Program-made: the position numbers and the translations under genes
Shown here: positions 4,286 to 38,389 of the stretch, piece after piece
Position numbering within the stretch: the stretch's first letter is position 1
Layout of the letters: each line of letters begins with the position of its first letter
IMG/VR virus record: IMGVR_UViG_3300001533_000780
Coordinates: 1-41,365 of that record
Direction: 5' to 3' (one strand)
DNA length: 41,365 bases
Origin: a virus
The notes under the pieces: generated by a model
Told to the model about the DNA's origin: nothing
What the model saw: the letters and a program-made list of their open reading frames with translations, nothing else
Database searches by the model: none

Positions 4286-4939
4286 ATGAGTCTTTTTACA
4301 TATAAAAATAAATTGATGGTTTATAATGGAAAAATACAAACTACTTCTGGTTATTATACAGATAATTTAGTAACATGGTGGAAATTTGATGGCAATGCAG
4401 ATGATGAATATGGAAATTATGATGGTATTGTTCATGGTGCAACATATACTACTGATGGAAAAATAGATGGATGTTATTATTTTGATGGTAATGATGATTA
4501 TATAGATGTTGGTGATGCTGGAAAATATAGTAGTAATGATAATTTTAGTATTACTGCTTGGATTTTAGCGAATAATACTGGAAGATTTTTTAGTAGAAGA
4601 GGAAGTTATGAAATTCACCCACATCCATCTAGAGAAACATTATTATTTTATGATGGTTCATGGGAAGCTAGGGGAACAAAAAATATAGTTGACGGAGAAT
4701 GGCATCATATAGGAATAGTAATTGATAGTGATGTTTCAAAAGTAACTTTATATGTAGATGGTGAAGTAGATTTATCACCTACAGATGTTTCTTTTAGTGC
4801 TGGTGGAAGTGATGCTGAAATAGGATCATGGAATAATGGTAGTAATAATCAATTAGATGGAAAAATAGATGATTTTAGAATTTATGAATCTAAATTAACA
4901 GATAAAAATATTGAAACGATATATAATAACACTAAATAA
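4286..4939 (+). CDS. LamG/concanavalin-A-like lectin domain protein
   Basis: Most of this 217-aa protein is one Laminin_G_3/ConA-like jelly-roll domain: LVTWWKFDGNADDEYGN at about 28-44, CYYFDGNDDYIDVG near 63-76, FSITAWILA, GEWHHIGIVID, VTLYVDGE and a closing LDGKIDDFRIYESKLTD. These are characteristic strands of the fold, which usually binds carbohydrate. There is no signal peptide, as expected for a virion protein. It follows the fibre gene at 3702 with 2 nt spacing, which suggests a receptor-binding tip. Its stop overlaps the end of the convergent HD-hydrolase gene by 8 nt. Confidence 0.8.
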   Translation: MSLFTYKNKLMVYNGKIQTTSGYYTDNLVTWWKFDGNADDEYGNYDGIVHGATYTTDGKIDGCYYFDGNDDYIDVGDAGKYSSNDNFSITAWILANNTGRFFSRRGSYEIHPHPSRETLLFYDGSWEARGTKNIVDGEWHHIGIVIDSDVSKVTLYVDGEVDLSPTDVSFSAGGSDAEIGSWNNGSNNQLDGKIDDFRIYESKLTDKNIETIYNNTK

Positions 4940-5519
4940 TAGCAATTTTTATTTTTTCTAGTATTTCATTAACTAATTTTAATTGTGGTTCTGATAATTT
5001 TCTTTTTTCTTTTAATTCATTTAATATATTAAAAGTTTGTTTTGCATAATTTTTTGACCATTTCTTTTCTTTATCATTACCATATATATACATTTTAGGA
5101 ATATCTTGAACATTATGTAGTCTATCCGCTAATTTTATTATTAATGCCCAATTTGACATATTTAAAATTTTTTCACTTAAATATTTTTCTTTTCCTAATA
5201 ATTTTATTTTTTCTTCATCTGAAGTTAATTCTTTAACTAAAGAAGTTACTAATTCACCAAATTCTTTTTTTATTTCATTAAAAGTAATATTTTGATCTTC
5301 AACAACATCATGTAAATATGCTGCTGCTATAATATCTTTAATTCTTTTAGATTTTTTTATTTTTTCAACTATTTTTGCTACACTTTTAGGATGTGTAAAA
5401 TATTCAATTTTTTCACCTTTTTCTGTTTTACCTTTTCTATATTGACCTTTATGAACTTTTTTAGAAAATTCTTCAGCCTTTTTTATTTTATTTTCAAATA
5501 ATTTAAAATCAATTAACAT
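4932..5519 (-). CDS. HD-domain (p)ppGpp hydrolase, SpoT/MESH1-like, with CTS-like leader
   Basis: This 195-aa protein matches the hydrolase domain of RelA/SpoT enzymes and MESH1. It has H23 in HKGQYRKG, FTHP at 41-44, the metal-binding AAYLHDVVED at 66-75 (H70, D71, E74, D75) and KLADRLHNVQD at 129-139 (D132, N136). Only the hydrolase domain is present, with no synthetase, TGS or ACT domain, so it should remove pyrophosphate from (p)ppGpp and relieve the stringent response. Its leader MLIDFKLFENK contains L-F-E and matches five other leaders in this window. It is transcribed divergently from the 1024-aa structural gene. Activity on a different nucleotide cannot be excluded. Confidence 0.8.
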   Translation of the reverse strand: MLIDFKLFENKIKKAEEFSKKVHKGQYRKGKTEKGEKIEYFTHPKSVAKIVEKIKKSKRIKDIIAAAYLHDVVEDQNITFNEIKKEFGELVTSLVKELTSDEEKIKLLGKEKYLSEKILNMSNWALIIKLADRLHNVQDIPKMYIYGNDKEKKWSKNYAKQTFNILNELKEKRKLSEPQLKLVNEILEKIKIAII

Positions 5520-5550
5520 TTTTTCAATTTATTTTGGAGTATATCTTATT

Positions 5551-5566
5551 TATATATAAAAAGAAA
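5551..5566. promoter_or_regulatory. Shared promoter region of divergent genes
   Basis: The 56-nt gap between the starts at 5519 (minus) and 5576 (plus) holds TATATATAAAAAGAAA, 10-25 nt before the plus-strand ATG. Its reverse complement also contains TATATATAAATAAG. It fits the putative phage promoter class and may serve both strands. Confidence 0.4.
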
Positions 5567-5575
5567 ACATCAAAA

Positions 5576-8500
5576 ATGTCAAATCAAAAAAATTCTTTCG
5601 TTTCAATGTTAGAAAATGTTTCTAGGCTTAATAAAAATAGCGTTGAAATAATAACTTCTTTAAATAATGTTACTTCTTCAAAAAGGGATTCTGTAACTGT
5701 AAGTTTATTAAATAATGATGGAACCACATCTGAATATTCAATGCCAACAATTGGTAAATTGAAAAATGATTTAGAAGCCGCAAATTCAAATATTAAAAGA
5801 TTATCTGGGTTTGAAGGTAAAACATATATAAAAGATGGAACTTCTATTAAAAGAGTTTATACTGTTGATTTATCTAGAGAACCACAAGAAATTCCTAGTA
5901 TTAATCAAATAAATGAATTTTCTAATAAAGTAAATTGGTTTTTTGAAGAATTAATGAATCCAATGTTATCAGTTAATGTTGATTTAACAGGAAAAATAAG
6001 TGATAATGTTAATAGAATTTTATCAAGAAGATATATAGTTAGATTTACTAGAAATGCTGATAATTCTTTAACAACAGAGGGACAAAATTCATTAACTGAT
6101 TTTACAAATAGATTTTTAAATGGTAGAACTGATATTACTATTACTGAATTTTTAAATTGGCATACTGGTGAATCTAATAATGGTGGTGTTATTAATTACA
6201 GAGATCCTTCTTTTAATTTAGATGAACAATTATTTGATGTTAATTATAAAGAATTACCATATAAAGGAATATTTAGAGTATTAAAGATAGAAACTGATGA
6301 TATTAATAATAAATTATGGCATCATTTAAATACATTAAGTTATTCAGACAGAAGGGCAAATGGAAATAAATCATTACAAATTGGAGATTCATTAATTATT
6401 AAGAAAAAATCTGTAACTACTAGTAGATATAAAATAGTTGAAATTTCAAATGCTAATTCTCAAAATAAAGTTAGATTAGAAAGGGTAGAAGGATATGATC
6501 CTATTGGAATAGATACAGAATTAGAATATTATTCAAATTTTACATCAAATAAAACTATTAATATTTCTATTGGTTATGATGAATATAATGTTATATTTAT
6601 TAAACCTATTAATACGGAAAATAATGTTATTGGATCTTTATGGAGTAATGGAACAGCATTTTATACAAATAATTTAATTTTAGATTCTAGTCAAAATAAT
6701 AAAGATTTGGCAACATATTATTCTGAAGTTGTAGAAGATTATGGTGCTTTATTAAAAGATATGGTTAAAAGGAATATACCAGCAGTTATAGGTGTAACTC
6801 CATTATCTCCAATTTTAGAATCGGATTCTTTTGAAGTTGTTCAAATAAATAAACATTTAACAGATTCTGCAAATGCTAAAGAATTACAACAATTACATTC
6901 TGAAAAAGATTCAATAAAATCAAAATTATCTTCACAACAAGAAACTATAAAATCTTTAAATAAAAGAATTGCTAAAGAAAAAAGTAATTCTAAAAAACAA
7001 GAATTTGAAGAAAAATTAGAAAAGGCTGTTGGTAAGCAAGAAGAATTATCAAATTCATTAGCAAGTATTACAGAACAAATTACAAATTCTAGAGCAACAC
7101 AAGCTTTATCAGAAGAACCAAAATATAGAGTAAGAGGATTTTTTGATATTCCAGCACCTACTAATAATCAAGAAATTATTCAATTTAGAATTCAATATAA
7201 ATATTCTTCTAAAGATGGATCTACTAATTCTAATGAAACTTTTGAAACAGAAGATATAGTTGCAACTTTTTCAAATTGGGAACAAAAAATAACAGATATA
7301 AGACAAAGAATTTATAATGTTAATACTGACACATGGGAATGGTTAAATGAAGATGTTACTAGTTCTGATGTTCCTAATATTAATTCTGTTGATATTCCAA
7401 TTAGACAAGGTGAACAAGTAACAATTAGAATTAAATCTATTAGTGAAGCTGGTTTTCCAGATACTAAAATTGAATCTCCATGGTCAGAAGAATTAACTAT
7501 ACCATTTCCAGATGATTTAAATAATAGATTTAATGAGTTTATTTATGAAGAAGGAATAAAAGATGAAGCATTAGTAGAAATGGATAATAAATTAAATACA
7601 GCTGGTGTTTATGAACATGTTAGAAATCAAGTTTCTATTGGTGATGAATTATATACACATAGAGATAATCAAATTTTAACTTCTTTTACTTCTCTAGGAA
7701 ATTCAGTAGATTTATTTACTTATTTACAAAATTTAACTGATAGAATTGTAACTATTGAAAATGAATTAGCTAAAACTAAAGGAAGATTAGATGTTAAATT
7801 GGTTTTTGATGGTGAAGAAACTATATTAAGTGCAAATTCTGTATTGACTGTTCCTATTGAATGTACTGAAATTGCAACACCTTATGGTGGTGGAAATAAA
7901 TATGTAAATGATATTTATAAATATCAAAAATATTCTATTTGGGTTGAAAATGATTCACCTAATAATTCATTATTTTTATTATCCGATAGAAGTTATGCTA
8001 CTGGTGGAACTAATATTTATTATCAAGAACCTAATAATAAAATGTTATTCGTAGATGAAGATAATTATCTATATGAACAAGTTAATAACCAATTTGTATG
8101 GTTTTCAGATAATCATGGTGGTGATCCTTTGTATACTGGGATGACAGAAGCATCAACATATTCATATTTTGCTAATTTAAATAGAATTTTATTAGCAAAT
8201 ACAGAAGGTAGAAATTTAGGAAATAATGATGTGAAAGAAGAAGTTTCAGGAACTATAGGTGGATTTAGTTTATTAAATGAAGGTTATGTTTCTTGGACAG
8301 ATACTGGAAATACTGATTTAACAGGAGGTACATTTTTAGCAACAGTTCATCCAGAATTACCAGATCCACTTGAATTACAAGAATTGGCAGAATCGGGTGA
8401 AAAAGAAATAAAACCTGAAAATAAACAAATAATTAAAATTAATATTTATTTTAAATTATCCGATGTTGATTATGAAGAACCTGCTGATGAAGGAGTTTAT

Positions 8501-8650
8501 ACATGGAGGGCAAGAAGAGATTATTCAGATGTTCAAATTTTAGATAGATATGTTAAATTATATATGGAAAAAATTGGTGAACAAAGACCTTTACAATATA
8601 CATTAAGATTTAGATTAAAAAGAAATGAACCTGCAACTAGAGTAAGATAG
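5576..8650 (+). CDS. Large virion structural protein with coiled coil and FnIII-like domain
   Basis: I start this 1024-aa protein at the ATG at 5576 (MSNQKNSFVSMLENVS), just after the promoter-like block. An in-frame TTG at 5534 lies upstream of that block. Features along the chain are: an N-terminal region with helical segments; a charged Gln/Lys/Glu coiled coil around residues 430-520; a fibronectin type III-like region near 530-650 (RVRGFFDIPAPTN ... VTIRIKSISEAGFPDTKIESPWSEEL); and a beta-rich C-terminal part. There is no enzymatic motif. Size and position beside other baseplate-type genes suggest a baseplate or tail protein. A perfect hairpin follows the stop. Confidence 0.65.
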   Translation: MSNQKNSFVSMLENVSRLNKNSVEIITSLNNVTSSKRDSVTVSLLNNDGTTSEYSMPTIGKLKNDLEAANSNIKRLSGFEGKTYIKDGTSIKRVYTVDLSREPQEIPSINQINEFSNKVNWFFEELMNPMLSVNVDLTGKISDNVNRILSRRYIVRFTRNADNSLTTEGQNSLTDFTNRFLNGRTDITITEFLNWHTGESNNGGVINYRDPSFNLDEQLFDVNYKELPYKGIFRVLKIETDDINNKLWHHLNTLSYSDRRANGNKSLQIGDSLIIKKKSVTTSRYKIVEISNANSQNKVRLERVEGYDPIGIDTELEYYSNFTSNKTINISIGYDEYNVIFIKPINTENNVIGSLWSNGTAFYTNNLILDSSQNNKDLATYYSEVVEDYGALLKDMVKRNIPAVIGVTPLSPILESDSFEVVQINKHLTDSANAKELQQLHSEKDSIKSKLSSQQETIKSLNKRIAKEKSNSKKQEFEEKLEKAVGKQEELSNSLASITEQITNSRATQALSEEPKYRVRGFFDIPAPTNNQEIIQFRIQYKYSSKDGSTNSNETFETEDIVATFSNWEQKITDIRQRIYNVNTDTWEWLNEDVTSSDVPNINSVDIPIRQGEQVTIRIKSISEAGFPDTKIESPWSEELTIPFPDDLNNRFNEFIYEEGIKDEALVEMDNKLNTAGVYEHVRNQVSIGDELYTHRDNQILTSFTSLGNSVDLFTYLQNLTDRIVTIENELAKTKGRLDVKLVFDGEETILSANSVLTVPIECTEIATPYGGGNKYVNDIYKYQKYSIWVENDSPNNSLFLLSDRSYATGGTNIYYQEPNNKMLFVDEDNYLYEQVNNQFVWFSDNHGGDPLYTGMTEASTYSYFANLNRILLANTEGRNLGNNDVKEEVSGTIGGFSLLNEGYVSWTDTGNTDLTGGTFLATVHPELPDPLELQELAESGEKEIKPENKQIIKINIYFKLSDVDYEEPADEGVYTWRARRDYSDVQILDRYVKLYMEKIGEQRPLQYTLRFRLKRNEPATRVR

Positions 8651-8668
8651 TAAATGAAAATTTAAATT

Positions 8669-8707
8669 AAAAAACCTGATGAATATTCATATTCATCAGG
8701 TTTTTTT
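8669..8707. terminator. Bidirectional terminator, 18-bp perfect stem
   Basis: AAAAAACCTGATGAATAT (8669-8686) is exactly complementary to 8689-8706 across a 2-nt loop, with A and T tracts at either side. It lies between the convergent structural gene (ending 8650) and the T9SS cargo gene (ending 8732), so it can stop transcription from both directions. Confidence 0.85.
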
Positions 8708-8731
8708 AGGAAAGAGCAACGGTTTAACGAA

Positions 8732-9520
8732 CTACTTATAAACAACTTTTATTCTTGTTGTTTCATTATCCCAATTATAAATTTTCAAAATATATGTTCC
8801 TTTTTTTAGATCAATAAAATTTATAATTTTAGTATATTCAGTTTTTAAAAGTCTACCATCTATTGAATAAACTTCTGTTTTATCATAATTTTCTAATTCA
8901 ACATTAACATAATCTGTTGTTGGATTAGGATAAACATTTACATCAATTTGATTTATTGTTGCTGATTTTGTTTCACAATCAACACTTTTTACACCATCAT
9001 CATAACCTGAATTATAAATAGAATCTGTATTTACACTTTCTACACCATTATTAAATGCATCTATTGAATCTTGTTTTGTATAATCACAAGTATAATCCAA
9101 CTGACCTTGATCATAACCATTGTTATATGCATCAATTGTGTCTTGTTCTACATAATCACAAGTAGTTTCAATTATTGGTGTTCTAGAAACATTAATTAAT
9201 TGTCCACCAAACACATTTGTTTTTATTCTAATTATATTTTCATAAAATATTAATAAGGTTTCACTATCATCATCTATTGTGGTATCAATAATGTATTCAA
9301 CAAATTTTAATGAATCATTAACATATTCTAAACAAGTAATGTTTATTTTTATATCCCCTTTTCCAAACAAAAAATCAAAAGTTATAGGTTCATAAAATAG
9401 ATATTCCCAATATGAAAATTCTTCATAATTAACACCAATAGCATCAACTTCACTAAGATCAAATCCAAATGTAGTTAAACTAAAAAACCCTAATATAATT
9501 CCTAAAATAATCTTTTTCAT
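8732..9520 (-). CDS. Secreted protein with T9SS C-terminal sorting domain
   Basis: The 262-aa protein begins with a classical signal peptide, MKKIILGIILGFFSLTTFG. Residues about 121-182 hold Cys-spaced repeats (CDYVEQDTIDAYNNGYDQGQ, then CDYTKQDSIDAFNNG). Residues 189-262 form a type A Por/T9SS sorting domain: VYPNPTTDYVNVEL, VYSIDGRLLK, IDLKKGTYILKIY and the C-terminal TTRIKVVYK. In Bacteroidota this domain directs export through the type IX system and is then cleaved for surface anchoring or release. I use the ATG at 9520 rather than an in-frame TTG at 9529. It has its own host-type promoter and a terminator, like an autonomous accessory gene. The function of the mature region is unknown. 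Confidence 0.85.
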   Translation of the reverse strand: MKKIILGIILGFFSLTTFGFDLSEVDAIGVNYEEFSYWEYLFYEPITFDFLFGKGDIKINITCLEYVNDSLKFVEYIIDTTIDDDSETLLIFYENIIRIKTNVFGGQLINVSRTPIIETTCDYVEQDTIDAYNNGYDQGQLDYTCDYTKQDSIDAFNNGVESVNTDSIYNSGYDDGVKSVDCETKSATINQIDVNVYPNPTTDYVNVELENYDKTEVYSIDGRLLKTEYTKIINFIDLKKGTYILKIYNWDNETTRIKVVYK

Positions 9521-9562
9521 AATTTTCAATTTTTAAATTTTACAATATATTTTTAATTAGTA

Positions 9563-9594
9563 CAAATATACAAAAAAATTTTTTAATATACAAA
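9563..9594 (-). promoter_or_regulatory. Bacteroidota-type housekeeping promoter for the T9SS cargo gene
   Basis: On the minus strand a -33 element TTTG (9591-9594) and a perfect -7 element TATATTTG (9563-9570, consensus TAnnTTTG) are separated by 20 nt, the arrangement recognised by the Bacteroidota primary sigma factor. The start codon lies about 43 nt further on. Phage-type TATATAAAAG motifs are absent here. Confidence 0.65.
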
Positions 9595-9776: not shown

Positions 9777-10469
9777 ATGTTAAAGTTTAGTCAATTTAAA
9801 AGTGCATTTGAAGAAAGAAATAAATCTTTAATTTCAGAAGGTTTAATAAATTCAATATCTTATAGTTTATTTATTGATAAATTAGAAGATATCTTAAATA
9901 AAAATAATATGAATTATTTTAATGTAGTAAAATTTGATGATGGAATTAAATTAATTGATTTGAAACCTTTTAAAAATAAAAATTTTTATAATGATTTAAT
10001 TTCATTATTAAATTTATCTGGATATTATATATCTAATTATGAAAAAGATAAAAATAACATTAAATATGATAACATTGGAATAAAGACATATATGAATTCA
10101 AATAATTTAACTATTATATTTAATAAAAAATTTGATTATTTAGATTTTGGAATTAAAATAAAATTATTTCACGTTACTGATGAAAAATTTATAAATAAAA
10201 TAAGGAAAAATGGATTAATTCCAAAAACAAATAAAATGATTGATAATCATCCACATAGAATATATTTATTTGATAATATAAAAGATATGGATTTTTTTAT
10301 TGAACAAAAAATCAAATATGATAAAACATTTGAACCCAAGAAATTAGAAATTAATGTTAAATCTTTACCTAAATTAAAATTATATAAAGATCCAAAATAT
10401 CCTAATGTAGATGTATATTACACTTATGATAATATTCCATCATATTGTATTGATATATTAAAACAATAA
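9777..10469 (+). CDS. ADP-ribosyltransferase-fold (KptA/DarT-like) candidate with CTS-like leader
   Basis: The last third of this 230-aa protein has the layout of small ART-fold proteins. KLFHVTDEKFINKIRKNGLIPK (129-150, H132) resembles the first strand and helix that bind NAD. RIYLFDNIKDMDFFIEQ (161-177) and LEINVKSLPKLKLYKD follow, and the end is VYYTYDNIPSYCIDIL. Some relatives transfer ADP-ribose; others (KptA/Tpt1) remove RNA 2'-phosphate. The first 22 residues form a leader with a canonical-looking I-S-E/G site at 19-22, like T4 internal-protein propeptides. A broken second copy of its C-terminus lies just downstream. No search was possible, so the fold call is moderate. Confidence 0.5.
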   Translation: MLKFSQFKSAFEERNKSLISEGLINSISYSLFIDKLEDILNKNNMNYFNVVKFDDGIKLIDLKPFKNKNFYNDLISLLNLSGYYISNYEKDKNNIKYDNIGIKTYMNSNNLTIIFNKKFDYLDFGIKIKLFHVTDEKFINKIRKNGLIPKTNKMIDNHPHRIYLFDNIKDMDFFIEQKIKYDKTFEPKKLEINVKSLPKLKLYKDPKYPNVDVYYTYDNIPSYCIDILKQ

Positions 10470-10650: not shown

Positions 10651-10668
10651 AAATTTTAAATATATTTA

Positions 10669-16255: not shown

Positions 16256-17065
16256 ATGATAATAAATTTTAAAAATTTTTTATTAGAAAAAGAAAAAATC
16301 ACAAGAAATTATTATATATTTGATTGGGATGATAATTTATTAGAAATGCCCACTAAAATTTATTTATATGATAAAAAACAAGATGAAATAATATCAGTAT
16401 CCACAAAAGAATTTGTCAATTATAGAAATGATGAAAATTATGATTATGTAGATTATTCTTTTATTGAATTTAGAGATGATGGTTCTAGAGGTAATCAAGC
16501 CTTTATTGAAGATATGATTGAAGCTTTAAATAATAAAAGATTTGCTAATAGTTGGGATGATTTTATTAAATGTTTAAGAAATGGTAGTTTATTTGCAATA
16601 GTAACTGCTCGTGGACATGATCCTATAATATTTAAAAAAGGAATAAAATATATTATTGAAAATATTTTAAATAAAGAAGATTATGAAAAAATGATTAAAA
16701 ATTTAATTTCATTTAGAAGTTTTTATGATACTGAAAATAATGAAAAAAATGAAAATGAATTAATAACAGAATATTTAGATAAATGTGGATATTATCCTAT
16801 AAATAATAAAAAAATATATGAAAAATTTAATTTAAATCCAGTTAAAAACCAGGAAAAATTAAAATTAGCATGTATAAATGATTTTATGGATAAAGTTAAA
16901 AAATTAAATATAATTGAGAAAACCACTCACTTTAATTATGATTATGATATTAAAATAAAATTTGGATTTTCTGATGATGATTATAAAAACGCTTCAATTG
17001 TTTCTAAATATGGAAAAGATATATCAGTTTATTATACTAAAAATTATAAAGAAAAAATAAATTAA
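16256..17065 (+). CDS. HAD-superfamily phosphatase with CTS-like leader
   Basis: In this 269-aa protein, YYIFDWDDNLL (19-29) is HAD motif I with nucleophile D23 and acid D25. FAIVTARG near residues 112-119 fits motif II (the T before ARG). FGFSDDDYKN near 238-247 fits motif IV, the Mg-binding acidic pair. The HAD fold predicts phosphoester hydrolysis; the substrate is not evident, but similar phage proteins act on nucleotides or polynucleotide ends. The first 12 residues, MIINFKNFLLEK, form the shared leader with L-L-E at 9-11, directly before the catalytic domain. It has its own promoter-like TATATAATAAATAA near 16230. Confidence 0.7.
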   Translation: MIINFKNFLLEKEKITRNYYIFDWDDNLLEMPTKIYLYDKKQDEIISVSTKEFVNYRNDENYDYVDYSFIEFRDDGSRGNQAFIEDMIEALNNKRFANSWDDFIKCLRNGSLFAIVTARGHDPIIFKKGIKYIIENILNKEDYEKMIKNLISFRSFYDTENNEKNENELITEYLDKCGYYPINNKKIYEKFNLNPVKNQEKLKLACINDFMDKVKKLNIIEKTTHFNYDYDIKIKFGFSDDDYKNASIVSKYGKDISVYYTKNYKEKIN

Positions 17066-17140: not shown

Positions 17141-17605
17141 ATGGAGAAATCTAAAATACAAGAAAAACAAGATAAAATAGAAATACTTGAAGCAGAATTA
17201 ATGGAAGAAAGAAAAGAATGGAATCAAATTATTTCAAAATTATCAAAAGATATTAAGAAAGATTTAAATTATTGTATGATTTTAGAATCCGAATCTGTAT
17301 CTAGAAGACAAGAAATAACAGAAATAATAGGTAAATATTCTTATAAGATAAATAAAGCAATGCCAGGAATAAAACAAACAAAAAAGAATTTATGGGAAAA
17401 TTATGCAACTAAATATCAATTAAAATTAAATTCAACAGAAAAGAAAATGTTTACTGAATCTGATTTAAGATATGCAGAATCACAAGTACAATCTTATAAA
17501 AATCATATTGATTTTTTTATAGAAACAAGAAAAACTATGGATCATATTATATGGTCTGTTAAAAATAAAATTCAATTATATAATATTACAGAAATGATGG
17601 GATAG
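17141..17605 (+). CDS. UvsY-like recombination mediator candidate
   Basis: This 154-aa, highly charged, helical protein has the size and C-terminal pattern of T4 UvsY (137 aa). FTESDLRYAESQVQ is followed by a long helix (HIDFFIETRKTMDHIIWSVKNKI). UvsY loads the UvsX recombinase on ssDNA coated with gp32. Support comes from synteny: T4 keeps uvsY and uvsW close together, and here a UvsW-type helicase is the next conserved gene, separated only by an endonuclease. Residues 1-45 form a coiled coil. The end overlaps the convergent endonuclease by 30 nt. Sequence identity is too low to be certain by eye. Confidence 0.5.
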   Translation: MEKSKIQEKQDKIEILEAELMEERKEWNQIISKLSKDIKKDLNYCMILESESVSRRQEITEIIGKYSYKINKAMPGIKQTKKNLWENYATKYQLKLNSTEKKMFTESDLRYAESQVQSYKNHIDFFIETRKTMDHIIWSVKNKIQLYNITEMMG

Positions 17606-19216
17606 CTTAAAAATTAAATATCCTGAATCATAAATTTTATAATTTTTATTAGTTTTATTATTATTAATAGTTTTTTGGTTATGTTTATTTATATAATAAA
17701 AATTTGGGATAGTTTTAAAAAGAAATTTCATATTTGATTTTAATAAATTTTTGTCTATATAATTTCTATCTATTTTTGAAATTATTTCAATTGGTTTATA
17801 TTTTTTAATGAAATAATTAAATAATTTTGAAAAATATTCTTTTACATTAATAAAATTTTTATTACAAAATTGATTTAAATAATATTTTCCTTTATAATCA
17901 CTTTTTGTAAAAGTCATAATAGATACCAATTCTTTTTTATAAAATAAACCTAATTTAATATAAGAATCTTTAAAACCATGAATATGATTATTATTTAAAA
18001 AATTTTTTATTTGTTCGTTATTTTTTAATTCTAATATTTTACATTCTATAGAATTTATTATTTTATTTTTATTTAATTTTTCTAAAATTATAGATTTAAT
18101 AATATCTTTTTTATAATTCCAATCATCTTCAAATATATGAATTAATTGAATTCCTTTCTTTTCACATAATTCTGTTTTATTTAAATGATAATTTTTTTCT
18201 TTTATTAAATCACTATGCCAATATAAACCATTGAATTCAAATGCTAAATTTAAATTAGGTAAATAAATATCTAATTCATAAGGAATAATTATTTTTCTAG
18301 ATGAAGTTATTATTTTTCCTTTATAATTTTCTTTTATAAAATTATAAACGTTTATTTCATCGTTTGATTTATAATAATGACCAATGGGATAACATATAGT
18401 ACAAATTTCTAAATTTTTTCTTGAATATCTATCTATTAATTGTTGGTATGATATATTATAATTTTTATTACATTTTTTACATTTTATTGTTATAATATCA
18501 TTATCAAAATCGACATTTATTATATTTAATTTAAATTTATTTTTTAAATTATTTATTTTGCTTTTCCTACTTTTTTCTTTAATTAAGGGATTACATAAAG
18601 TGCAACTTGTTTTATATTTTTTCAAATTAGTTTTTTTAATTTTTTCTTTTATTAATTCATTTTTTGGGGGAAATGAAAAACCATATCTTTTTATATTTGT
18701 TTTAATTCTTTTTGTAATTATATCATCTTTATGTTTTTTAAAATAAATATTTAATTTTTCTCTACATTCATTTGTTTCTAAATAGCATTTAAAACCATAT
18801 TTTTTTATATTTGTTTTTATTGATTTATTTTTTATATCTTGATTTTGTGAAGAATATTTTGTGCCATATTTTTCTATATTTGTTTTAATAGATTTATTTT
18901 TTAATTTATCGTTATGTAACGGAATTTTATAACCGAATCTTTTTAAATTTGTATTTTCTGTTTTTAATCTACTACATTTTTGTGAACAAGAATAATAATT
19001 ACCATTAGATATATTTTTAATATATTTATAATATGGTAGTTCTTTTTCTTTACCACAAATATCACATTTTACTTTAATTGAATAATGGGAATTTTTCTTT
19101 AAATCGTTTATTTTTATAATAAAGTAATTTTGATTTATTATTTTATAACCTTTTTCTAAAAAATAATTTTTATTTTTTGTTTTCGCACTTATTCTAATTT
19201 CTTTATTTAAAATCAT
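17576..19216 (-). CDS. Homing-type endonuclease, Hef/EDxHD-like with zinc-finger and repeat DNA-binding region
   Basis: In this 546-aa protein, residues 1-90 contain a Cys pair C51/C54 and C77/C81, a probable zinc ribbon. Residues 90-205 carry four or five repeats of the type IKTNIKKYGF, which look like small DNA-binding modules. A second Cys cluster lies at 246-275 (CKKCN, CTIC). The nuclease core is IPYELDIYLPNLNLAFEFNG (311-330) followed by YWHSD, with likely catalytic E314, D316, E327 and H334 as in EDxHD/Vsr-like enzymes. GIQLIHIFEDDW follows. It lies between the UvsY-like gene and uvsW and is probably a free-standing homing endonuclease. A broken relative lies on the far side of uvsW. 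Confidence 0.75.
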   Translation of the reverse strand: MILNKEIRISAKTKNKNYFLEKGYKIINQNYFIIKINDLKKNSHYSIKVKCDICGKEKELPYYKYIKNISNGNYYSCSQKCSRLKTENTNLKRFGYKIPLHNDKLKNKSIKTNIEKYGTKYSSQNQDIKNKSIKTNIKKYGFKCYLETNECREKLNIYFKKHKDDIITKRIKTNIKRYGFSFPPKNELIKEKIKKTNLKKYKTSCTLCNPLIKEKSRKSKINNLKNKFKLNIINVDFDNDIITIKCKKCNKNYNISYQQLIDRYSRKNLEICTICYPIGHYYKSNDEINVYNFIKENYKGKIITSSRKIIIPYELDIYLPNLNLAFEFNGLYWHSDLIKEKNYHLNKTELCEKKGIQLIHIFEDDWNYKKDIIKSIILEKLNKNKIINSIECKILELKNNEQIKNFLNNNHIHGFKDSYIKLGLFYKKELVSIMTFTKSDYKGKYYLNQFCNKNFINVKEYFSKLFNYFIKKYKPIEIISKIDRNYIDKNLLKSNMKFLFKTIPNFYYINKHNQKTINNNKTNKNYKIYDSGYLIFKLSHHFCNII

Positions 19217-19270: not shown

Positions 19271-20920
19271 ATGAAATTTAAAATAAATGAAGAAAAAACA
19301 AAATTAGTTTTAACAAAATCAAACACAGAAGAATATAATCAAATTAAAAGAATTTTAAATCCATATGTTGACGGCTATCGGTTTATGCCACGCTTCAAAA
19401 TGGGCGTTTGGAATGGTAAAATAGACTTTTTTAAAAATGGGTTTATTAATTTGGGTTTATGGAAAGTTGTATATGATTCTTGTAAAGAATATGGTTATAA
19501 ATTTAATATAGAAAATCCAGAATTATTTCCAAAAGAAAAATTAGATAAAAAAGAAATAGAAGATTTTTGTTTTGATTTTTTTAAAAATCATAGAATACAA
19601 GATAAAAAAGATAAAAAAGGAAATATTATTAAAGGTGAAAAATTTATGCCATATAGCCATCAAATTGATGCTATTTATAAAATTTTAAAATATAAATATG
19701 GTTTAGTAGAAATTGCAACTGCTGGTGGTAAATCATTAGTTATATCAACAATTATATTTTATATTTTAAAGAATATAAAACCAGATGCTAAATTTTTAAT
19801 TATTGTTCCAAATATTTCACTTGTTACTCAAATGTATGATGATATTTTAGATTATAATTTAGGTTTCAATAATGAAAATTTAAATCCACTTGACATAAAT
19901 TTATTAGAAATTATGTCAGATAAACCTAGAAAAGTTAGGGATAATAAAGAACCTAATATTATTATTGGAACATATCAATCTTTAGAAAAATTATCTTATA
20001 AATTTTTTAAACAATTTGATATGGTTGCAACAGATGAAGCTCATAGAGCAAAGGCAATTTCTATAAATAAAATTTTAACAAAAACATTTGGATATGCTAA
20101 TTATAGATTTGGTGTTACTGGTACTTTACCTGCTAAAAATTCTTCAAATAGATTAACAATAGAATCTTTAATGGGTCCAAATTTATTTTCAATAAAAGCT
20201 AAAAAATTACAAGATAAAGGATTAATAAGTCCTATTAAAATAAAATCATTAATGTTAAATTATGATGACTATGATTTTGCAAAAAATATTTATGCAATAA
20301 AAAAAAGAGGTGGTGGTAAACAGGCTTATCAATTAGAAAGAAAATATATTCATAATTCAGAAAAAAGAAAATATTTTATTGTAAAATTAATTAAAAAATT
20401 AAAAACTAATTCTTTAGTTTTATTTCATGCAGTACAACATGGTACTGATTTATATAATTTTTGTAGGGATAATATTCCTAATATAGATTTTTATTATGTT
20501 GACGGAAGTGTAAAAAGTGATAAAAGAGAATACATTAAAAAGCAGTTAGAAGAAACATCTTCTAAAAATATAAAAGTAGGTATATGTAGTTTTGGAACAT
20601 TTTCTACTGGAATAAACGTTAGGGCAATTAATAATATTATTTTTGTAGATTCATTTAAATCTGATCAAATTATTAGACAATCAATTGGTAGGGGGTTAAG
20701 ATTACATAAAGATAAAGTTTTATTGGTTGTTTATGATATTGTAGATATTTTTTCAAAAAAATATACAAATACATTATTACAACATTATAAATATCGTAGG
20801 GATAAAATTTATAAAGAACAAAAATTTGATTATGAAGAAATAAAAATATCTTTACCAGGAACAAAAGATTCAAGAAGAATTAAATTAAATAAATTAAATG
20901 ATAATAACAAAAAAAATTAA
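19271..20920 (+). CDS. uvsW: UvsW-type ATP-dependent helicase
   Basis: In this 549-aa superfamily 2 helicase, the N-terminal DNA-binding segment GYRFMPRFKMGVWNGKID (35-52) matches that of T4 UvsW. Helicase motifs are clear: Q-like YSHQIDAI (128-135), Walker A ATAGGKS (149-155), Walker B DEAH (255-258), motif III TGT (283-285) and motif VI QSIGRGLR (about 469-476). UvsW unwinds D-loops, R-loops and branched DNA and helps switch T4 from origin- to recombination-dependent replication. Length is slightly above the T4 protein because of a basic tail ending SRRIKLNKL plus seven residues. The last 23 nt overlap the start of an endonuclease gene. A short GC-richer patch (19370-19415) encodes the conserved GYRFMPRF block. 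Confidence 0.9.
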   Translation: MKFKINEEKTKLVLTKSNTEEYNQIKRILNPYVDGYRFMPRFKMGVWNGKIDFFKNGFINLGLWKVVYDSCKEYGYKFNIENPELFPKEKLDKKEIEDFCFDFFKNHRIQDKKDKKGNIIKGEKFMPYSHQIDAIYKILKYKYGLVEIATAGGKSLVISTIIFYILKNIKPDAKFLIIVPNISLVTQMYDDILDYNLGFNNENLNPLDINLLEIMSDKPRKVRDNKEPNIIIGTYQSLEKLSYKFFKQFDMVATDEAHRAKAISINKILTKTFGYANYRFGVTGTLPAKNSSNRLTIESLMGPNLFSIKAKKLQDKGLISPIKIKSLMLNYDDYDFAKNIYAIKKRGGGKQAYQLERKYIHNSEKRKYFIVKLIKKLKTNSLVLFHAVQHGTDLYNFCRDNIPNIDFYYVDGSVKSDKREYIKKQLEETSSKNIKVGICSFGTFSTGINVRAINNIIFVDSFKSDQIIRQSIGRGLRLHKDKVLLVVYDIVDIFSKKYTNTLLQHYKYRRDKIYKEQKFDYEEIKISLPGTKDSRRIKLNKLNDNNKKN

Positions 20921-22045
20921 AATAAATTCAAAAAGTAAAGATAAAAAATATTATATTTCTTTAGGATATAATGTTAAAAATGATTTTATTATAGATATAA
21001 AGGATTTAAAAAAAGGTAGTGGTAAAAAGATAAATGTTATATGTGATGTTTGTGGAAATGAAAAAATAATTGAATATAGAAGGTATATAAAAAATACTAA
21101 TAATTTAAAAGAAGATTATTGTTGTAGTAAAAAATGTTCTAATTTAAAAAGTGAAAAAAGATTAAAAGATAAATATGGTGTTATAAATGTATTTCAACTC
21201 AGTGAAATAAAAGAAAAATCTAAGGAAACTAAAAAAAGATTATATTTGAATCCTAATTTTACTAATATTGAAAAAAGGAAGAAAACTAATTTAAAAAAAT
21301 ATGGTTGTGAAGAATCTTTATCAGATAAAAATATAAGAAAAAAGATACGAAATACGTGTATAAATAAATATGGTGTAGATTCTGTTTTAAAAATTAATAA
21401 TATTAAAAAATCGCAGGAAGAAAAATCGAAAATAACTAAATTTGAAAAATCTAAAAATTATTATAAAGAAAAATATAATTTGAATTTAATTGATTTTGAT
21501 AATTTTTGTTATAAATTTAAATGTGAAAAAGGACATAATTATTTAATTAAAAAATCTATTTTAAAGAATAGATTAGCTCATTCTGTTCAAATATGTACAA
21601 TATGTAATCCTATTGGAATTTCATATATTTCGCAAGGTGAAAAAGAATTATTAAATTTTATAAAAAAATACATTAATAGTGTTGAATCTACAAATAGAAA
21701 TAAAATTCATCATATCATTTAGATATTTATTTACCTAAATTAAAAATAGCATTTGAATTTAATGGTATTTATTGGCATAATAATAAAAATAAAGAAAAAT
21801 ATTATCATAAAATAAAAACAGATTTATGTAAAGATAAAAATATTCGATTAATTCATATATGGGAAAATGATTGGTATGAAAAAAAAGATATTATTAAATC
21901 AATTATTTTAGAAAAAATAAATATAAATGAATATTATATATTAGAGGATTATTATATCAAAAAACTTAATAAAATTAAATTAGATAATTTTATTAATTTA
22001 AATTCTATTAAAGATTTTAATAGTGTTTTTGGTTATGGATTATAG
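20898..22045 (+). pseudogene. Frameshifted and truncated homing-type endonuclease
   Basis: The first 274 codons (20898-21722) are related to the 546-aa endonuclease at 17576: the same start (MIITKKIKINSKSKDKKYY), zinc-ribbon Cys pairs, NLKKYG repeats and the CTICNPIG cluster. The frame stops just where the nuclease core should begin. The core continues one frame away from about 21719 (LDIYLPKLKIAFEFNGIYWH, then IRLIHIWENDW) and ends at 22045. A one-base change between about 21700 and 21718 explains this. The C-terminal 150 residues of the family are missing, and the stop lies inside the left arm of a 35-bp inverted repeat. It overlaps uvsW by 23 nt. Confidence 0.75.
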
Positions 22046-22116: not shown

Positions 22117-22344
22117 ATAAATAAAACAATATTATGTCATAATTTTATTGTTTTAAAAAAAGATTTAAATAAAGATATAATATCATATATTAATAATTTA
22201 TTATATAAATTTAATAGAATATTATATGTTAAAATAATTAAATATGATAATTTTTATGAATGTTTAATAAGAGGGAATTATGATAAAAAAGGAAAAAGAT
22301 TACTTAAAAACAGAAAAAGGAAATTAAACAAATTATTTTTTTAA
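22108..22344 (+). CDS. Small unknown protein, start uncertain (possibly 5'-truncated)
   Basis: This is an open frame of 78 codons without any internal ATG. It can only begin at the TTG at 22108, which lies inside the right arm of the inverted repeat, and an in-frame TGA lies just upstream. The product is lysine- and isoleucine-rich and ends KNRKRKLNKLFF, a tail also present in neighbouring small proteins. The shared tail suggests a real coding sequence. The missing ATG suggests that its original 5' end was lost when the palindrome arose. Confidence 0.4.
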   Translation: MTIINKTILCHNFIVLKKDLNKDIISYINNLLYKFNRILYVKIIKYDNFYECLIRGNYDKKGKRLLKNRKRKLNKLFF

Positions 22345-31165: not shown

Positions 31166-31504
31166 TTAAAAAATACCATGATGTGCAATATCATTTGACA
31201 TTCTTATTGCATCTTTTCTAATAAAATCTGCTGGAATATTTGCTGGATTCCTAAATGTTACTGGATCATTTGTTAATTTATAAGATGAGATTATATCTGA
31301 TTTTTTTATTTGAAATTTATTTGAACCTTCTATATTTACACCATCTTTATCACAAAGAGTAACTTGACAATATTTCTTTTTAGGCAACCAATCTGTTATT
31401 TTTGCTAAAGCAACATCTTGTGTTGCCCAATATCTAATTTTAACAACATCTCCTACTTTATAACTTTTAGATTCAAACAATTTATAAGATTTAATATATT
31501 TCAT
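31166..31504 (-). CDS. Small SH3-barrel-like protein with CTS-like leader
   Basis: The 112-aa protein starts MKYIKSYKLFESKSYKVGDV. Residues 1-12 fit the shared leader, and L9-F10-E11/S12 resembles a prohead-protease cleavage site. Residues 16-75 have the strand pattern of a small beta barrel (VGDVVKIRYWATQDVALAKI, KYCQVTLCDKDGVNIEG). The start overlaps the stop of the upstream gene by one base (TAATG), and both carry the leader, so they may be co-packaged. Function is unknown. Confidence 0.6.
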   Translation of the reverse strand: MKYIKSYKLFESKSYKVGDVVKIRYWATQDVALAKITDWLPKKKYCQVTLCDKDGVNIEGSNKFQIKKSDIISSYKLTNDPVTFRNPANIPADFIRKDAIRMSNDIAHHGIF

Positions 31505-31818
31505 TATTTTAATTCTATTAATTTTTCATCACATAAATTATATAATTTATCCCATATTTTAAAAGATTCATCAATATTATTAGATTTTTTTAATTCTTTA
31601 ATAATATCATTAAATTCAATATTAGAATTTAAATTTTCTTCTAATTTTGTTGCTAATTGCATATTATATGTTTTTAAATCTATAATTTTATTTTCAAAAT
31701 TATTCCATAATTTTGAAATATCTATAGTTTGATCCCATTCTATATCTTCTTCAAAATCATTTTCAATATATAATTTATTTTCTAATAATTTTTCATTAAA
31801 AGATAAAATATGTTTCAT
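31504..31818 (-). CDS. Small helical protein with CTS-like leader
   Basis: The 104-aa acidic, helical protein begins MKHILSFNEKLLENKLYIEN, again F...L-L-E within the first 13 residues. The rest (WNNFENKIIDLKTYNMQLAT, DIIKELKKSNNIDESFKIWD) is predicted as helices without a known domain. It is the first gene of a two-gene minus-strand unit embedded between plus-strand structural genes, with its own promoter-like block at 31822-31834. Function is unknown. Confidence 0.6.
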   Translation of the reverse strand: MKHILSFNEKLLENKLYIENDFEEDIEWDQTIDISKLWNNFENKIIDLKTYNMQLATKLEENLNSNIEFNDIIKELKKSNNIDESFKIWDKLYNLCDEKLIELK

Positions 31819-34659: not shown

Positions 34660-34661
34660 AT

Positions 34662-35303
34662 ATGACTATAAAAGAAATTGATGATGCTATTAAAGAATTA
34701 TTTGATGATGTGGATGCACTAGATATTTCAAATGTTTATGAAAAAGATAATGAACATTATAAATTAGTTATATTTTTATCTAAATTTTATATGGAAGATG
34801 TTAAAATACTTTATACAAAATTAATATTTCCAGTTGATTCTAATAAAGTAAAGTTAATTAAACAATCTTTTTTGTATTTATATGATATTAATTGTGTTTA
34901 TAGAAATGTTGATTTTAAAGATATTTATGATTTTAAAGATAAATTAAAATCTATAATTATAAAAGAAAAATTTGGAAAATCAATAAAAATATTATCTGAA
35001 TTTATGAAATATCCAACAAATTTAATTAATGATTGGTTATCAAAACAAAATATAAATAATATAAATGTTACTCACGTAGATTATTCACCTAAAATAAAAA
35101 TTATTCCTTGTAAATATTTATCTTTTGATTTTAAAATTCATGTAAATAATATAGAAGTTAATTTAATTATTACAAAAGAAGGAAAAGATAATTTTAGATA
35201 TGGTTTTGTTTATCCTAAAATAAGAGATAAAATTGAAAAAATTGATTTAACTGATATGATTCAAACTATTGGTATTTCATTAAAAAATAACTTATTAGAA
35301 TAA
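34662..35303 (+). CDS. Baseplate-operon protein of unknown function
   Basis: The 213-aa protein starts MTIKEIDDAIKELFDDVDAL. It has an N-terminal helical half (FLSKFYMEDVKILYTKLIF) and a beta-rich C-terminal half (YLSFDFKIHVNNIEVNLIIT, NFRYGFVYPKIRDKIEK). It starts 2 nt after the 895-aa gene, and its stop overlaps the gp6-like start by one base (TAATG), so expression is tightly coupled with the wedge protein. It may be a small wedge partner (functional counterpart of T4 gp53 or gp25), but no sequence motif proves that. Confidence 0.55.
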   Translation: MTIKEIDDAIKELFDDVDALDISNVYEKDNEHYKLVIFLSKFYMEDVKILYTKLIFPVDSNKVKLIKQSFLYLYDINCVYRNVDFKDIYDFKDKLKSIIIKEKFGKSIKILSEFMKYPTNLINDWLSKQNINNINVTHVDYSPKIKIIPCKYLSFDFKIHVNNIEVNLIITKEGKDNFRYGFVYPKIRDKIEKIDLTDMIQTIGISLKNNLLE

Positions 35304-37141
35304 TGGCATTAGAAAATACCAGATTTTTTAATTTTATTGAATTACAATATGAAAAATTAAATGAACAAATAAACAATTGGTTACAAGTTGTTTATAATAA
35401 ATCAGATATACAATTTGATGTTTCTAGTCCTTATGGTCAAATTTTAACAGTTGCTAAAGAATTATTTACACATAATATAATTTATCTTAAAAATTCATTA
35501 GAACAAATAAATATTGAAACTAGTCAAGATGAAAGAACTATAAGATATATTTCAAGAATTGCTGGTCATAATCCAACTAGATCAGTTGCAGCTAGTGGTG
35601 TTTTAAAATTTAAAGTTAAAGGCGGAATTAATATTTCAGAAGAATTAGAAACATCTAATCCTTCTATAATGGTAAGGAATAAAACCGTTATAAAAAATGA
35701 AACAAATTCATTACAATATTCAATTAATTTAGGAACTATAGATTCAAATATTTATCCATTAAATAATAATTCTGTTTTTTATTTAAATATAATTCAGGGA
35801 AAATGGGAAGTTCAAAGATATACATCAAATGGTTTAGCTGGTCAAAGTATATCTGTTAATGTAGGAAATAATTCTAAAATAGATAATTTTAATTATGCTG
35901 TTTATGTAAATAATATAAGATTGACTATTAAAGAACATATGTGGGATATGTTGCCAGATGAATTTTCTTGTGTTTCAAAAACAGGTTTTAATGGTGGATT
36001 GGATATTTATTTTGGAAATGGTGATTATGGTTTTATACCATCCGAAGGGAGTATTATAAGAATAGAATATTTATTAACAAACGGTGTTACTGGAGAAATT
36101 TTAAATCCTATACTTAACGATTGGAAATTTGAAACACCAGTATATGATAATAATAGAAATGAAGTAAAAATGTCTGATTTATTTGATATTGATGTTTATA
36201 AAGATGTTGGTTTTGCTTCTGATGGTGAAGATACAGAAACCACTAAATCTTTAATTCCTATTATTTCAAGAAATTTTGTATTAGCAACACCAGATCAATT
36301 TATTTATCATTTAACTAAATTAGGAATTTTTAGTCAAGTTGATGCTTTCAATAAATTACAAGATAATGATTTTTCTTTTTATACAACAAATCAAAAAGTA
36401 AAAAATAAAATTAAAAGGTTAAAAAAGGGAATTACAGAAAATAAAAATAAGACAGATTTATTAAATATTGTACAAGAAATAAATAAAGATTATGGTAAAT
36501 TTTGGAATAATACTAATGATAATATCATATTTTTATTTTTAATTCCAAAAATAAGAAAATATCTATCTAATAGTGTAAATTATTTTAATCTTCCAATAGA
36601 TGTTTTTTCTTTAGATGATTATGAAAAACAAAAAGTTAAAAATTATTTAAATGCTCAAGGAATATTAAGTATGACAACAGAAATAAGAATTATCCAACCA
36701 AAAATTAGTAGATATATTTGTAAAGTTTTTGTTAATAGATTTGAAGAATCTAATGAAGATAATATTAGACAAAGAATAATAAATGTTATATCAAATTTTA
36801 TGTTAAATAATTCTAGGATAGATAGAATAGTTAAGTCTGAATTGATATTTCAAATAAAAAATAATATTGATGAAATTGATTCTGTAGATATTCAATTTAT
36901 TTCAAAAAAGAATGAACAATATCATGCTACAAGAGGTTCTTCTATTGGAGAAAGTTATAATCCAAATAAAATATTAGGAATTGATAAAATTCATGGAGAT
37001 ATGATTTTAGAAAAAGATGAATATCCATTGATTAGGGGTGGTTGGTCAGATAGAAATAAAAATTTTTATAGTGATAAATTAAAAAATAATGGTTTATCTA
37101 GTATAAATATTAGATTTGGTAAAAAATTAATAAAAAAATAA
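35303..37141 (+). CDS. Baseplate wedge protein, T4 gp6 / baseplate-J-like
   Basis: The 612-aa protein is close to T4 gp6 in length (660 aa). It has the start-region pattern of J-like wedge proteins: FDVSSPYGQILTVAKELFTH, then RTIRYISRIAGHNPTRSVAA, where two helices precede a GxxPxRxxAASG turn. A beta-domain with FNGGLDIYFGNGDYGFIPSE and IRIEYLLTNG follows, typical of this family. Gp6 forms the ring that joins wedges in the T4 baseplate. The C-terminal third (ISRYICKVFVNRFEESNEDN) resembles the J-protein C-terminal domain. It is coupled to the upstream gene by a one-base overlap. Confidence 0.8.
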   Translation: MALENTRFFNFIELQYEKLNEQINNWLQVVYNKSDIQFDVSSPYGQILTVAKELFTHNIIYLKNSLEQINIETSQDERTIRYISRIAGHNPTRSVAASGVLKFKVKGGINISEELETSNPSIMVRNKTVIKNETNSLQYSINLGTIDSNIYPLNNNSVFYLNIIQGKWEVQRYTSNGLAGQSISVNVGNNSKIDNFNYAVYVNNIRLTIKEHMWDMLPDEFSCVSKTGFNGGLDIYFGNGDYGFIPSEGSIIRIEYLLTNGVTGEILNPILNDWKFETPVYDNNRNEVKMSDLFDIDVYKDVGFASDGEDTETTKSLIPIISRNFVLATPDQFIYHLTKLGIFSQVDAFNKLQDNDFSFYTTNQKVKNKIKRLKKGITENKNKTDLLNIVQEINKDYGKFWNNTNDNIIFLFLIPKIRKYLSNSVNYFNLPIDVFSLDDYEKQKVKNYLNAQGILSMTTEIRIIQPKISRYICKVFVNRFEESNEDNIRQRIINVISNFMLNNSRIDRIVKSELIFQIKNNIDEIDSVDIQFISKKNEQYHATRGSSIGESYNPNKILGIDKIHGDMILEKDEYPLIRGGWSDRNKNFYSDKLKNNGLSSINIRFGKKLIKK

Positions 37142-37144
37142 TAA

Positions 37145-37405
37145 ATGATAGAAAAAGAATTACAAATAAAAGAATTATATGAATTTAGACATTTTCATGA
37201 TGATTTTGGAAATAATAAACCACTTGATTATGAAAATAAATTATTACCATTAATAATGACAGATTCAATGTTTAAAAATAATAAAACTAGAATTTTTTTA
37301 GAAAAATTACAAAAGTTATTTATTTGGAATCTTGAATCTATATTGGTTTTAAGAAATTTTTGGAATTATACTGTTGGTAAATATTATAATAAGCATATAA
37401 ATTAA
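37145..37405 (+). CDS. Small baseplate-operon protein
   Basis: The 86-aa protein begins MIEKELQIKELYEFRHFHDD, 3 nt after the gp6-like stop, and is therefore probably translated from the same message. It is helical with an aromatic C-terminal part (LFIWNLESILVLRNFWNYTV). No family is recognised. A minor wedge or assembly component is plausible from position only. Confidence 0.5.
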   Translation: MIEKELQIKELYEFRHFHDDFGNNKPLDYENKLLPLIMTDSMFKNNKTRIFLEKLQKLFIWNLESILVLRNFWNYTVGKYYNKHIN

Positions 37406-37444
37406 TAATTAATTTTAATATATATTTAAAAAATATTAAATTTC

Positions 37445-38389
37445 ATGATTATCAAAAATTATAATAATTTTTTAAAATTAATTTTAGAAGAAGAAAAAAA
37501 TCCAAAAGAAGAAGTACAAGATTCTGAAAAAGATAAAAATGTTCAAAATCCTGAACAAAAACAAAAAGAAGAAGTACAAGATTCTGAAAAAGATAAAAAT
37601 GTTCAAAAACCTGAACAAAAACCTGAACAAAAACCTGAACAAAAACCTGAACAAAATTCAGAAGTACAAAAAGAATTAGATCAAATTCAATCTGAAATAG
37701 ATAAAGAAGCTTCTGAAATAGTTAATGATGTTAAGTCTAAAATAAAAAAAAATGAATCATTTTATTTAAAAGAAGCAGCTGGTATGTCATTTGCGTTTTT
37801 ATCTGCAATTGTTTTATCATTACCTAAATTAATTGATTTATTGGGAATAGCGGTTAAAAAAATTAGAAATTTATTTAAAAAAGATAAGAAATGGAATACA
37901 ACAAAATTAGAAGAATGGGGTGAAGAATTACATGAAATTTATATTAATACAATATCTAAAATTATCAAATCAGTTTCTAAAATTTTTGGAAAATGGGAAT
38001 TATCGGATGAACAAGCTAAAAAAATTGCAACATATATATATTGGATTGCTTTAATATATTTGGGATTATCTGGTGCTACTAGTTTAATGACAAGTGCTGG
38101 TAAATATGGATTAGCTGCTGGTACAGTAAAAACAATTACAACATTAACAAAAACATATGAAATATCTTTAATTGTTGTTGCTGCTTATTTAGTTATTACA
38201 TCTTCATATTTTAAAAGTTTAGAAGATGCTGTACATGGATTAGAGAAATGTGTAGAAAATCCACCAAAGGATATTAAAATTGAAAAAGATAAATTAGAAT
38301 TATTAATAAAAAAAGGTGGTAAAAGACCATCAAGTAAAACATATAAAAGATTAGTTGCTTGTGCTATAAAAGCAAGTGAAAAACATTAA
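37445..38389 (+). CDS. Membrane protein with CTS-like leader and Pro/Glu/Gln repeats
   Basis: In this 314-aa protein, residues 1-16 (MIIKNYNNFLKLILEE) match the shared leader with I-L-E at 13-15. Residues 20-75 are a charged repeat region: a 20-aa unit containing EEVQDSEKDKNVQ twice, then repeated KPEQ. Three hydrophobic segments follow, around 112-135 (SFAFLSAIVLSLPKLIDLLG), 195-220 (IYWIALIYLGLSGATSLM) and 240-258 (ISLIVVAAYLVITSSYF), and then a basic C-terminus. A phage protein with a packaging-type leader and membrane segments could be ejected into the host envelope, as internal virion proteins are in other phages. A holin-like role is an alternative. Confidence 0.6.
   Translation: MIIKNYNNFLKLILEEEKNPKEEVQDSEKDKNVQNPEQKQKEEVQDSEKDKNVQKPEQKPEQKPEQKPEQNSEVQKELDQIQSEIDKEASEIVNDVKSKIKKNESFYLKEAAGMSFAFLSAIVLSLPKLIDLLGIAVKKIRNLFKKDKKWNTTKLEEWGEELHEIYINTISKIIKSVSKIFGKWELSDEQAKKIATYIYWIALIYLGLSGATSLMTSAGKYGLAAGTVKTITTLTKTYEISLIVVAAYLVITSSYFKSLEDAVHGLEKCVENPPKDIKIEKDKLELLIKKGGKRPSSKTYKRLVACAIKASEKH
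37504..37656 (+). repeat. 60-bp duplication and four 12-bp repeats inside the membrane-protein gene
   Basis: A 60-bp unit is repeated (37504-37563 and 37564-37623) with one difference seen at 37549. It is followed by four exact copies of ACCTGAACAAAA from 37609 to 37656. Both keep the reading frame, so the linker can lengthen or shorten without disrupting the protein. Confidence 0.85.

Follow-up and report, generated by a model that had tools for sequence, protein, structure and literature searches.

The capsid targeting sequences of phage T4 act in targeting mainly through residues 4 and 7 and in processing through residues 8 and 10, and the prohead protease gp21 cuts them after L/I-x-E (PMC9026906). 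Three T4 internal proteins share such an N-terminal leader of about 10 residues, which has aromatic residues at positions 4–5 and 7–8, ends in [IL]-x-E and precedes differing cargo, and the genome encodes an S77 prohead protease. Many head proteins of phages SPN3US and phiKZ, some of them cleaved by the prohead protease, enter the cell, according to two reports (PMC5694885, PMC7411985). Here, we describe leaders resembling those of T4 in the viral contig IMGVR_UViG_3300001533_000780 (41,365 bases, 20% G+C, standard code), which was analysed over its full length and is hereafter called the window, and in its relatives of the clade Mahaphage, which holds Lak and the largest genomes of Al-Shayeb et al. 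(PMC7162821). A first-pass annotation of the window had pointed to six unrelated proteins with a common leader ending in L/I-x-E and had suggested that they could be packaged and injected effectors. Our results indicate, with a probability of about 0.8, that the leaders are T4-type capsid targeting sequences that are used on a proteome-wide scale and are cut at L/I-x-E. A literature search found no earlier report of such a leader system, within a coverage that left out most subscription journals.

By sequence, the window is a member of the Mahaphage group, among which it is placed because its baseplate wedge protein matches these relatives best. This gp6-like protein (35303–37141, + strand; PHROG 219, baseplate wedge subunit), which bears no leader, had its best matches in LR756501 (46%), LR756502 (36%) and LR745206 (35%). 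Its identities to the 735-, 642-, 636- and 635-kb uncultured phage genomes W01 (LR756501), W02 (LR756502), W04 (LR756504) and W03 (LR745206) ranged from 45.7 to 34.5%, and those of the window UvsW helicase to the same four genomes from 50 to 46%. The closest sequence found was L320, with a baseplate wedge identity of 64%. As a single-sequence query the baseplate wedge protein found no relatives in IMG/VR, whereas alignment queries did. More distant relatives are W05 (LR756500, 462 kb) and W06 (Lak-A1). Genes were called uniformly in W01, W03, W04, W05 and parts of W02, as well as in T4, phiKZ, cyanophage S-SM2, Flavobacterium phage MaF61 and Lak-A1, which served for comparison.

Leaders in whole proteomes of Mahaphage relatives

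The leader can be written as an N-terminal M-x(1-5)-[FYW]-x-x-[FYL]-[LIVF]-x-E or [FY]-x-L-F-E, and it stands in front of unrelated cargo in approximately 8–16% of the proteins (about 70–140 per genome) in the three Mahaphage relatives that are complete and closest to the window, compared with three proteins in T4. The residues conserved in these leaders are aromatic or large ones at T4 positions 4 and 7, [IL] at position 8 and E at position 10. The rule of the first-pass annotation, an aromatic residue at positions 5–7 and L/I-x-E at residues 7–21, gave just a 1.7–2.4-fold excess in the huge relatives, and a profile was therefore trained in its place and tested on held-out genomes. A tight pattern was found in 96 of the 964 proteins of W01, versus 19 in shuffles and an expectation of 17 based on internal Met positions, and in 83 versus 18 and 57 versus 17 proteins of W03 and W04, respectively. 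Carriers found with the iterated profile numbered 105 (W01), 142 (W03), 73 (W04) and 28 (W05), versus approximately 10, 11, 10 and 8 expected. When each genome was scored with a profile trained on other genomes, the numbers were 76, 98, 69 and 30 versus 6.6, 8.3, 12.8 and 8.5. Thus, the complete relatives bear out the proposed enrichment, with a strong excess over both shuffled starts and internal Met positions.

The phiKZ proteome showed no clear excess under the first-pass rule, the tight pattern or the held-out profile. The ejection proteins of SPN3US and phiKZ differ, judged from what is described of them and from a check that covered the phiKZ proteome, in having no shared short leader of the Mahaphage form. 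Little leader excess was found in cyanophage S-SM2. Lak was rejected as a positive relative, with 12 leaders versus 6.2 and a protease without repeat.

Different from the T4 leader, those of Mahaphage occur in lineage-specific forms. Typical starts are MIKKFKLFES and MIKNYxxFINEA in W01; MKYLKxFES, MKHLKxFNES and MKYLKxYKIFES in W03; MKYLKLFENF in W04 and MKYIKEYEEFLNEA in W05. Without any motif being supplied, the top over-represented 5-mer of the entire W03 proteome was MKYLK, which was present in 31 proteins versus 0.14 expected. Position P3 is I or L in 46–63% of carriers, versus a background of 19–23%, and [LIVF] in most, and P1' is A, G, S or N in 55–68% of the carriers of three genomes, versus approximately 20%; both figures are partly built in by the profile. 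The L/I-x-E site proposed earlier is present, but the cleavage rule appears to be looser, namely [LIVF]-x-E followed by S, N or A.

The 348 carriers of W01, W03, W04 and W05 fell into 288 cargo clusters once the leader had been removed, and paralogue expansion was rejected, as the carriers spread over many clusters. Among 722 reciprocal best-hit pairs, the leader was on neither protein in 657, on both in 12 and on one side in 53; shared core genes rarely bear a leader. Some of the 53 pairs are clean leader additions, e.g. W01 MENLNDYKQFNENILNLSKKRKFP versus W05 MLNISKKRKFP. Similarly, RnlA-type RNA ligase carries a leader in W02 and W03 and none in W01 and W04, and Acb1-like (anti-CBASS) proteins have leader-form starts in W02, W03 and W04. 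Carrier families of W01 and W03 include polyphosphate kinase 2, pantetheine-phosphate adenylyltransferase, DeoC, methyltransferases, T4-type RNA ligase, CCA-adding enzyme and Acb1, and some carriers match polynucleotide kinase-phosphatase or 2',3'-cyclic phosphodiesterase. No known family was found for most carriers, including most of the large leader proteins of W03 that were scanned. Codon identity inside the leaders was near or below the expectation from codon usage, except for a modest excess in W01. As the codons vary, what is conserved is the peptide and not the DNA, and this diversity led us to reject recent copying of the leader as DNA.

Leader genes also have an upstream element in common with virion genes. 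[TA]TATATA was found upstream of 10 of 16 virion genes in W01 and 11 of 15 in both W03 and W04. It precedes 39, 47 and 66% of the leader genes of these genomes, respectively, versus 21, 22 and 19% of other genes (P 5e-5, 2e-9 and 1e-16; 0.08 in W05). In the window, the element precedes all six leader genes versus 14 of 35 others (P 0.009). It may be a late promoter.

Prohead protease and scaffold repeat

A gp21-like protease, for which the first-pass annotation had suggested a search, was found as Peptidase_S77 in all six huge relatives (W01–W06), although only the matches in W05 and W06 exceeded the cut-off of the family. The protease gene adjoins a gp23 homologue in W01–W05. The H and SSR blocks of T4 gp21 are conserved in the aligned proteins of the relatives, which extend further into a long C-terminal region. 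In W01–W04, this region repeats a unit like NLDKNIAYSEYIAE (e.g. YSEYIAEN) at 14-residue spacing; the repeats of W05 are degenerate. Inside proteins, [YFW]xx[FYW][ILV]xE has a frequency of about one per 3,000 residues; the protease, with 14 copies in W01 and 11 each in W03, W04 and the part of W02 that was searched, exceeds every other protein of these sequences in internal leader motifs. Moreover, a protease with 9–16 repeat copies, typically 14 residues apart, could be read in 73 of 80 IMG/VR relatives, and the genes near these proteases encode 86 leaders versus 13 in shuffles. AlphaFold predicted long helices for the repeat region with low confidence (mean pLDDT 55), so only its helical character was used. 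When solved structures were searched with a profile of the protease, the only matches were to designed coiled coils and scaffold fusions, and none was to gp21.

A scaffold-repeat profile was built without any N-terminus. Among the 48,689 positions of T4, its ranks 1 and 2 were TYQEFIAEA, the leaders of two internal proteins. N-terminal positions made up 16 of the 50 best in W01 (P 1e-9) and 10 in W05 (P 2e-4); among the 50 best, Lak had none and phiKZ one. Fusion of the protease to a motif-repeating scaffold distinguishes Mahaphage from T4, where gp21 and gp22 have no repeat under the same pattern and none of the core proteins stands out for the strict motif. In lambda (C/Nu3) and P2 (gpO), prohead protease and scaffold also form one polypeptide. 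The Mahaphage fusion differs from these in its S77 family and in its 14-residue repeat of the cargo-leader motif. Since the protease rod repeats the same form, each leader probably imitates a single unit of the core scaffold, and the cargo would thereby co-assemble with the core.

Leader proteins of the window and neighbouring features

The six leader open reading frames and N-termini stand where the first-pass annotation had placed them, all satisfy its rule and, as it had claimed, they are mutually unrelated, with no pair at E < 0.01. Under that rule, 8 of the 41 window N-termini fit versus 2.6 in residue shuffles (P 0.0014), a P value that is optimistic because the rule was framed after the sequences had been seen. 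How loose the rule is can be seen from its two further matches, at 22333 and 24418. The window evidence by itself is thus modest and could not carry the claim; the complete genomes of the relatives settle the question. The window leaders were scored with a profile trained solely on other genomes, with a threshold of 1% false positives (a slash marks the boundary after the leader in the sequences below).

Three leaders are strong. The leader MKYIKSYKLFE/S (14.2 bits) begins a small protein at 31166–31504 (− strand), whose L320 orthologue has a passing leader with the start MKYLKTYNQLYEN. The neighbouring small protein at 31504–31818 (− strand) starts with MKHILSFNEKLLE/N (10.9 bits), and its L320 orthologue also has a passing leader, with the start MIHLDTFKIFEN/KLYIE. 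The third, MLIDFKLFE/N (7.1 bits, passing), is on a protein at 4932–5519 (− strand) that had been annotated as a (p)ppGpp hydrolase. That assignment holds: the protein is of the MESH1/SpoT type, with an HD domain (Pfam HD_4, 9e-15, residues 21–169) and a PDB match to MESH1 (9e-15) that starts at residue 12, right behind the leader. Its homologues in W03 and W04 are without leader.

Two leaders are supported by homologues. The leader MIINFKNFLLE/K (5.4 bits, just below threshold) is on a protein at 16256–17065 (+ strand) whose homologues W03_124617 and W01_237854 have passing leaders, while W04_156476 begins at the domain and has none. The DxDD motif (DWDDNLL) agrees with its earlier annotation as a HAD phosphatase; no Pfam match was found, so that the HAD-like assignment is by motif only. 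The protein at 9777–10469 (+ strand), with MLKFSQF...SLISE/G, fails the threshold at 2.1 bits. In its homologues (W01, L316/L319), the start remains aromatic and an [LI]-x-E-type site falls at the same boundary, with LISE/G, LIVE/G, FLNE/T and HIKE/G across the set and IKD/G in L319. The ART-fold candidate proposed for it was confirmed by a Foldseek match to the tRNA 2'-phosphotransferase KptA/Tpt1 (prob 1.0, E 7e-4, about 105 residues). The structure model has a pLDDT of about 80 across much of the ART part and is weak outside that domain, and the conserved blocks are only H (LYH/LFH) and RIY. The protein thus has an ART-superfamily fold nearest KptA/Tpt1, and any 2'-phosphotransferase or ADP-ribosyltransferase activity is putative. 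Similar to T4 Alt, a head-carried ADP-ribosyltransferase, it and two W01 relatives have an ART-superfamily fold behind the leader. It differs from Alt in its nearest fold, and no relation to Alt turned up, although no comparison was aimed at Alt.

The least supported of the six, and weak, is the leader-like start MIIKNYNNFLKLILEE (4.9 bits, slightly below threshold) on a KPEQ-repeat protein of membrane type at 37445–38389 (+ strand), an accessory gene that is missing at the corresponding junction of L320. A possible seventh leader, MKAIHLYTTYNQFKTFYNEN, with the boundary MKAIHLYTTYNQFKTFYNE/N, was not in the first-pass list and lies at 2397–2972 (− strand). Its L316 homologue starts ...ITYNNYIKEN/NSERLDK, with the boundary aligned at 27% identity.

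Conserved virion genes that lie side by side in relatives are separated by several of the leader genes, which therefore look like accessory insertions. In comparison with L320, 16256–17065 and 37445–38389 occupy such junctions, and several leader genes lie at 571–579 kb of W01, the matching baseplate region. The junctions between virion genes may be insertion hot spots for leader genes.

Further features were observed in the window and its relatives. A gene at 8732–9529 (− strand) encodes a signal-peptide-like start and, by domain match, a Por_Secre_tail domain. This domain is the C-terminal sorting signal of the type IX secretion system of Bacteroidota, which the window phage may use in its host. 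A tRNA gene whose anticodon reads TCC is located at 39750–39805 (− strand; Rfam 46.8 bits, missed by ARAGORN), with a TATATATATA run upstream. The genes at 600–1751 and 1717–2394, near tail-like genes, encode a DUF2827 protein (3e-105) adjoining a sulfotransferase-family protein. The open reading frames 20898–21722 and 17576–19216 are related to one set of W05, W04 and Lak proteins, of which the former matches the N-terminal part only and looks truncated. About 10 proteins of Lak-A1 (loci L201–L227) start alike with MNKNIKxLLESLFDDD, and ESLFD occurs in 8 versus 0.16 expected; Lak may have a leader of its own. In W01, the peptide DPYGEExW (loci L015–L051, also L229, L230 and L249) was found in 110 copies in approximately 95 proteins, 41 times at the extreme C-terminus; the 5-mer DPYGE is in 93 proteins versus 0.13 expected. 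Its synonymous codons vary, which suggests a motif of the protein rather than a repeat of the DNA. W03, W04, W05 and the window lack it, and no phage paper naming it was found in the literature search. The leader is also borne by 35 of the 93 tag proteins (odds ratio 4.5, P 2e-9), and DPYGEExW is possibly a second sorting tag.

Explanations and significance

The first-pass reading of the leaders as capsid-targeting-like gained support from their enrichment, the S77 protease, the repeat rod, the match to the T4 capsid targeting sequence and the upstream element common with virion genes. From these comparisons we infer that the cargo would be packaged into the virion, freed of its leader and injected. 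The protease would cut scaffold and leaders after [LI]-x-E, leaving mature cargo in the head; the cargo would then enter the host with the DNA and act at once, e.g. against CBASS, tRNA cleavage or the stringent response. Several results weigh against this reading. The window, a 41-kb fragment, contains no Peptidase_S77, and three of its six leaders are below the profile threshold on their own score, two of them backed by homologues. In W05, the excess is weaker and the repeats are degenerate. The scaffold-repeat profile showed no clear N-terminal preference in W03 (6 of 50, P 0.05) and W04 (4 of 50, P 0.27), so the leader would have drifted from the repeat there. In addition, since many carriers have no known family, calling most of the cargo effectors is conjecture.

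A rather unlikely alternative is that the leader packages its cargo, which then acts in the head or in assembly, is not injected and includes no effectors. T4 IPIII is indeed thought to aid head assembly (PMC9026906), and many carriers are small proteins without known family. However, most of the identified families are enzymes suited to the cytoplasm (Acb1, RNA ligase, CCA-adding enzyme, polyphosphate kinase 2 and (p)ppGpp hydrolase), and all three T4 internal proteins inactivate host restriction enzymes after injection (PMC12373910). It is less probable still that the leader is an unremoved sorting signal to elsewhere, such as the membrane, the replication compartment or a phage-encoded adaptor. 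Short amphipathic N-terminal peptides are capable of such targeting, and the cargo is broad, including the window membrane-type protein and metabolic proteins, but this explanation does not account for the matches to the protease-fused scaffold repeat and the T4 capsid targeting sequence, the L/I-x-E ending followed by S, N or A, or the upstream element common to virion genes. Chance likeness, A+T-rich starts or recent copying of DNA with promoter and first codons can practically be set aside: the window is indeed A+T-rich and the loose rule catches two more of its proteins, but composition is already refuted for the relatives by the shuffle and internal-Met controls and by phiKZ, which shows no excess under the first-pass rule or the tight pattern, and copying is opposed by the codon identity of the leaders.

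With capsid targeting as the preferred reading, we lean towards the view that the Mahaphage head is a general protein delivery system, in which approximately 100 accessory proteins per genome, each recruited by gaining about 10 codons for a detached scaffold-repeat leader, would disable host defences before phage genes are expressed. The same motif, as a repeated part of the core in relatives, offers a structural rationale for the T4 capsid targeting sequence. If the reading is true, the payload of the largest known phages, about 70–140 proteins per genome, could be read from sequence, and it would include Acb1, RNA repair enzymes and many family-less proteins that would be candidates for anti-defence functions. 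Each virus particle may thus bring a large, ready-made protein payload.

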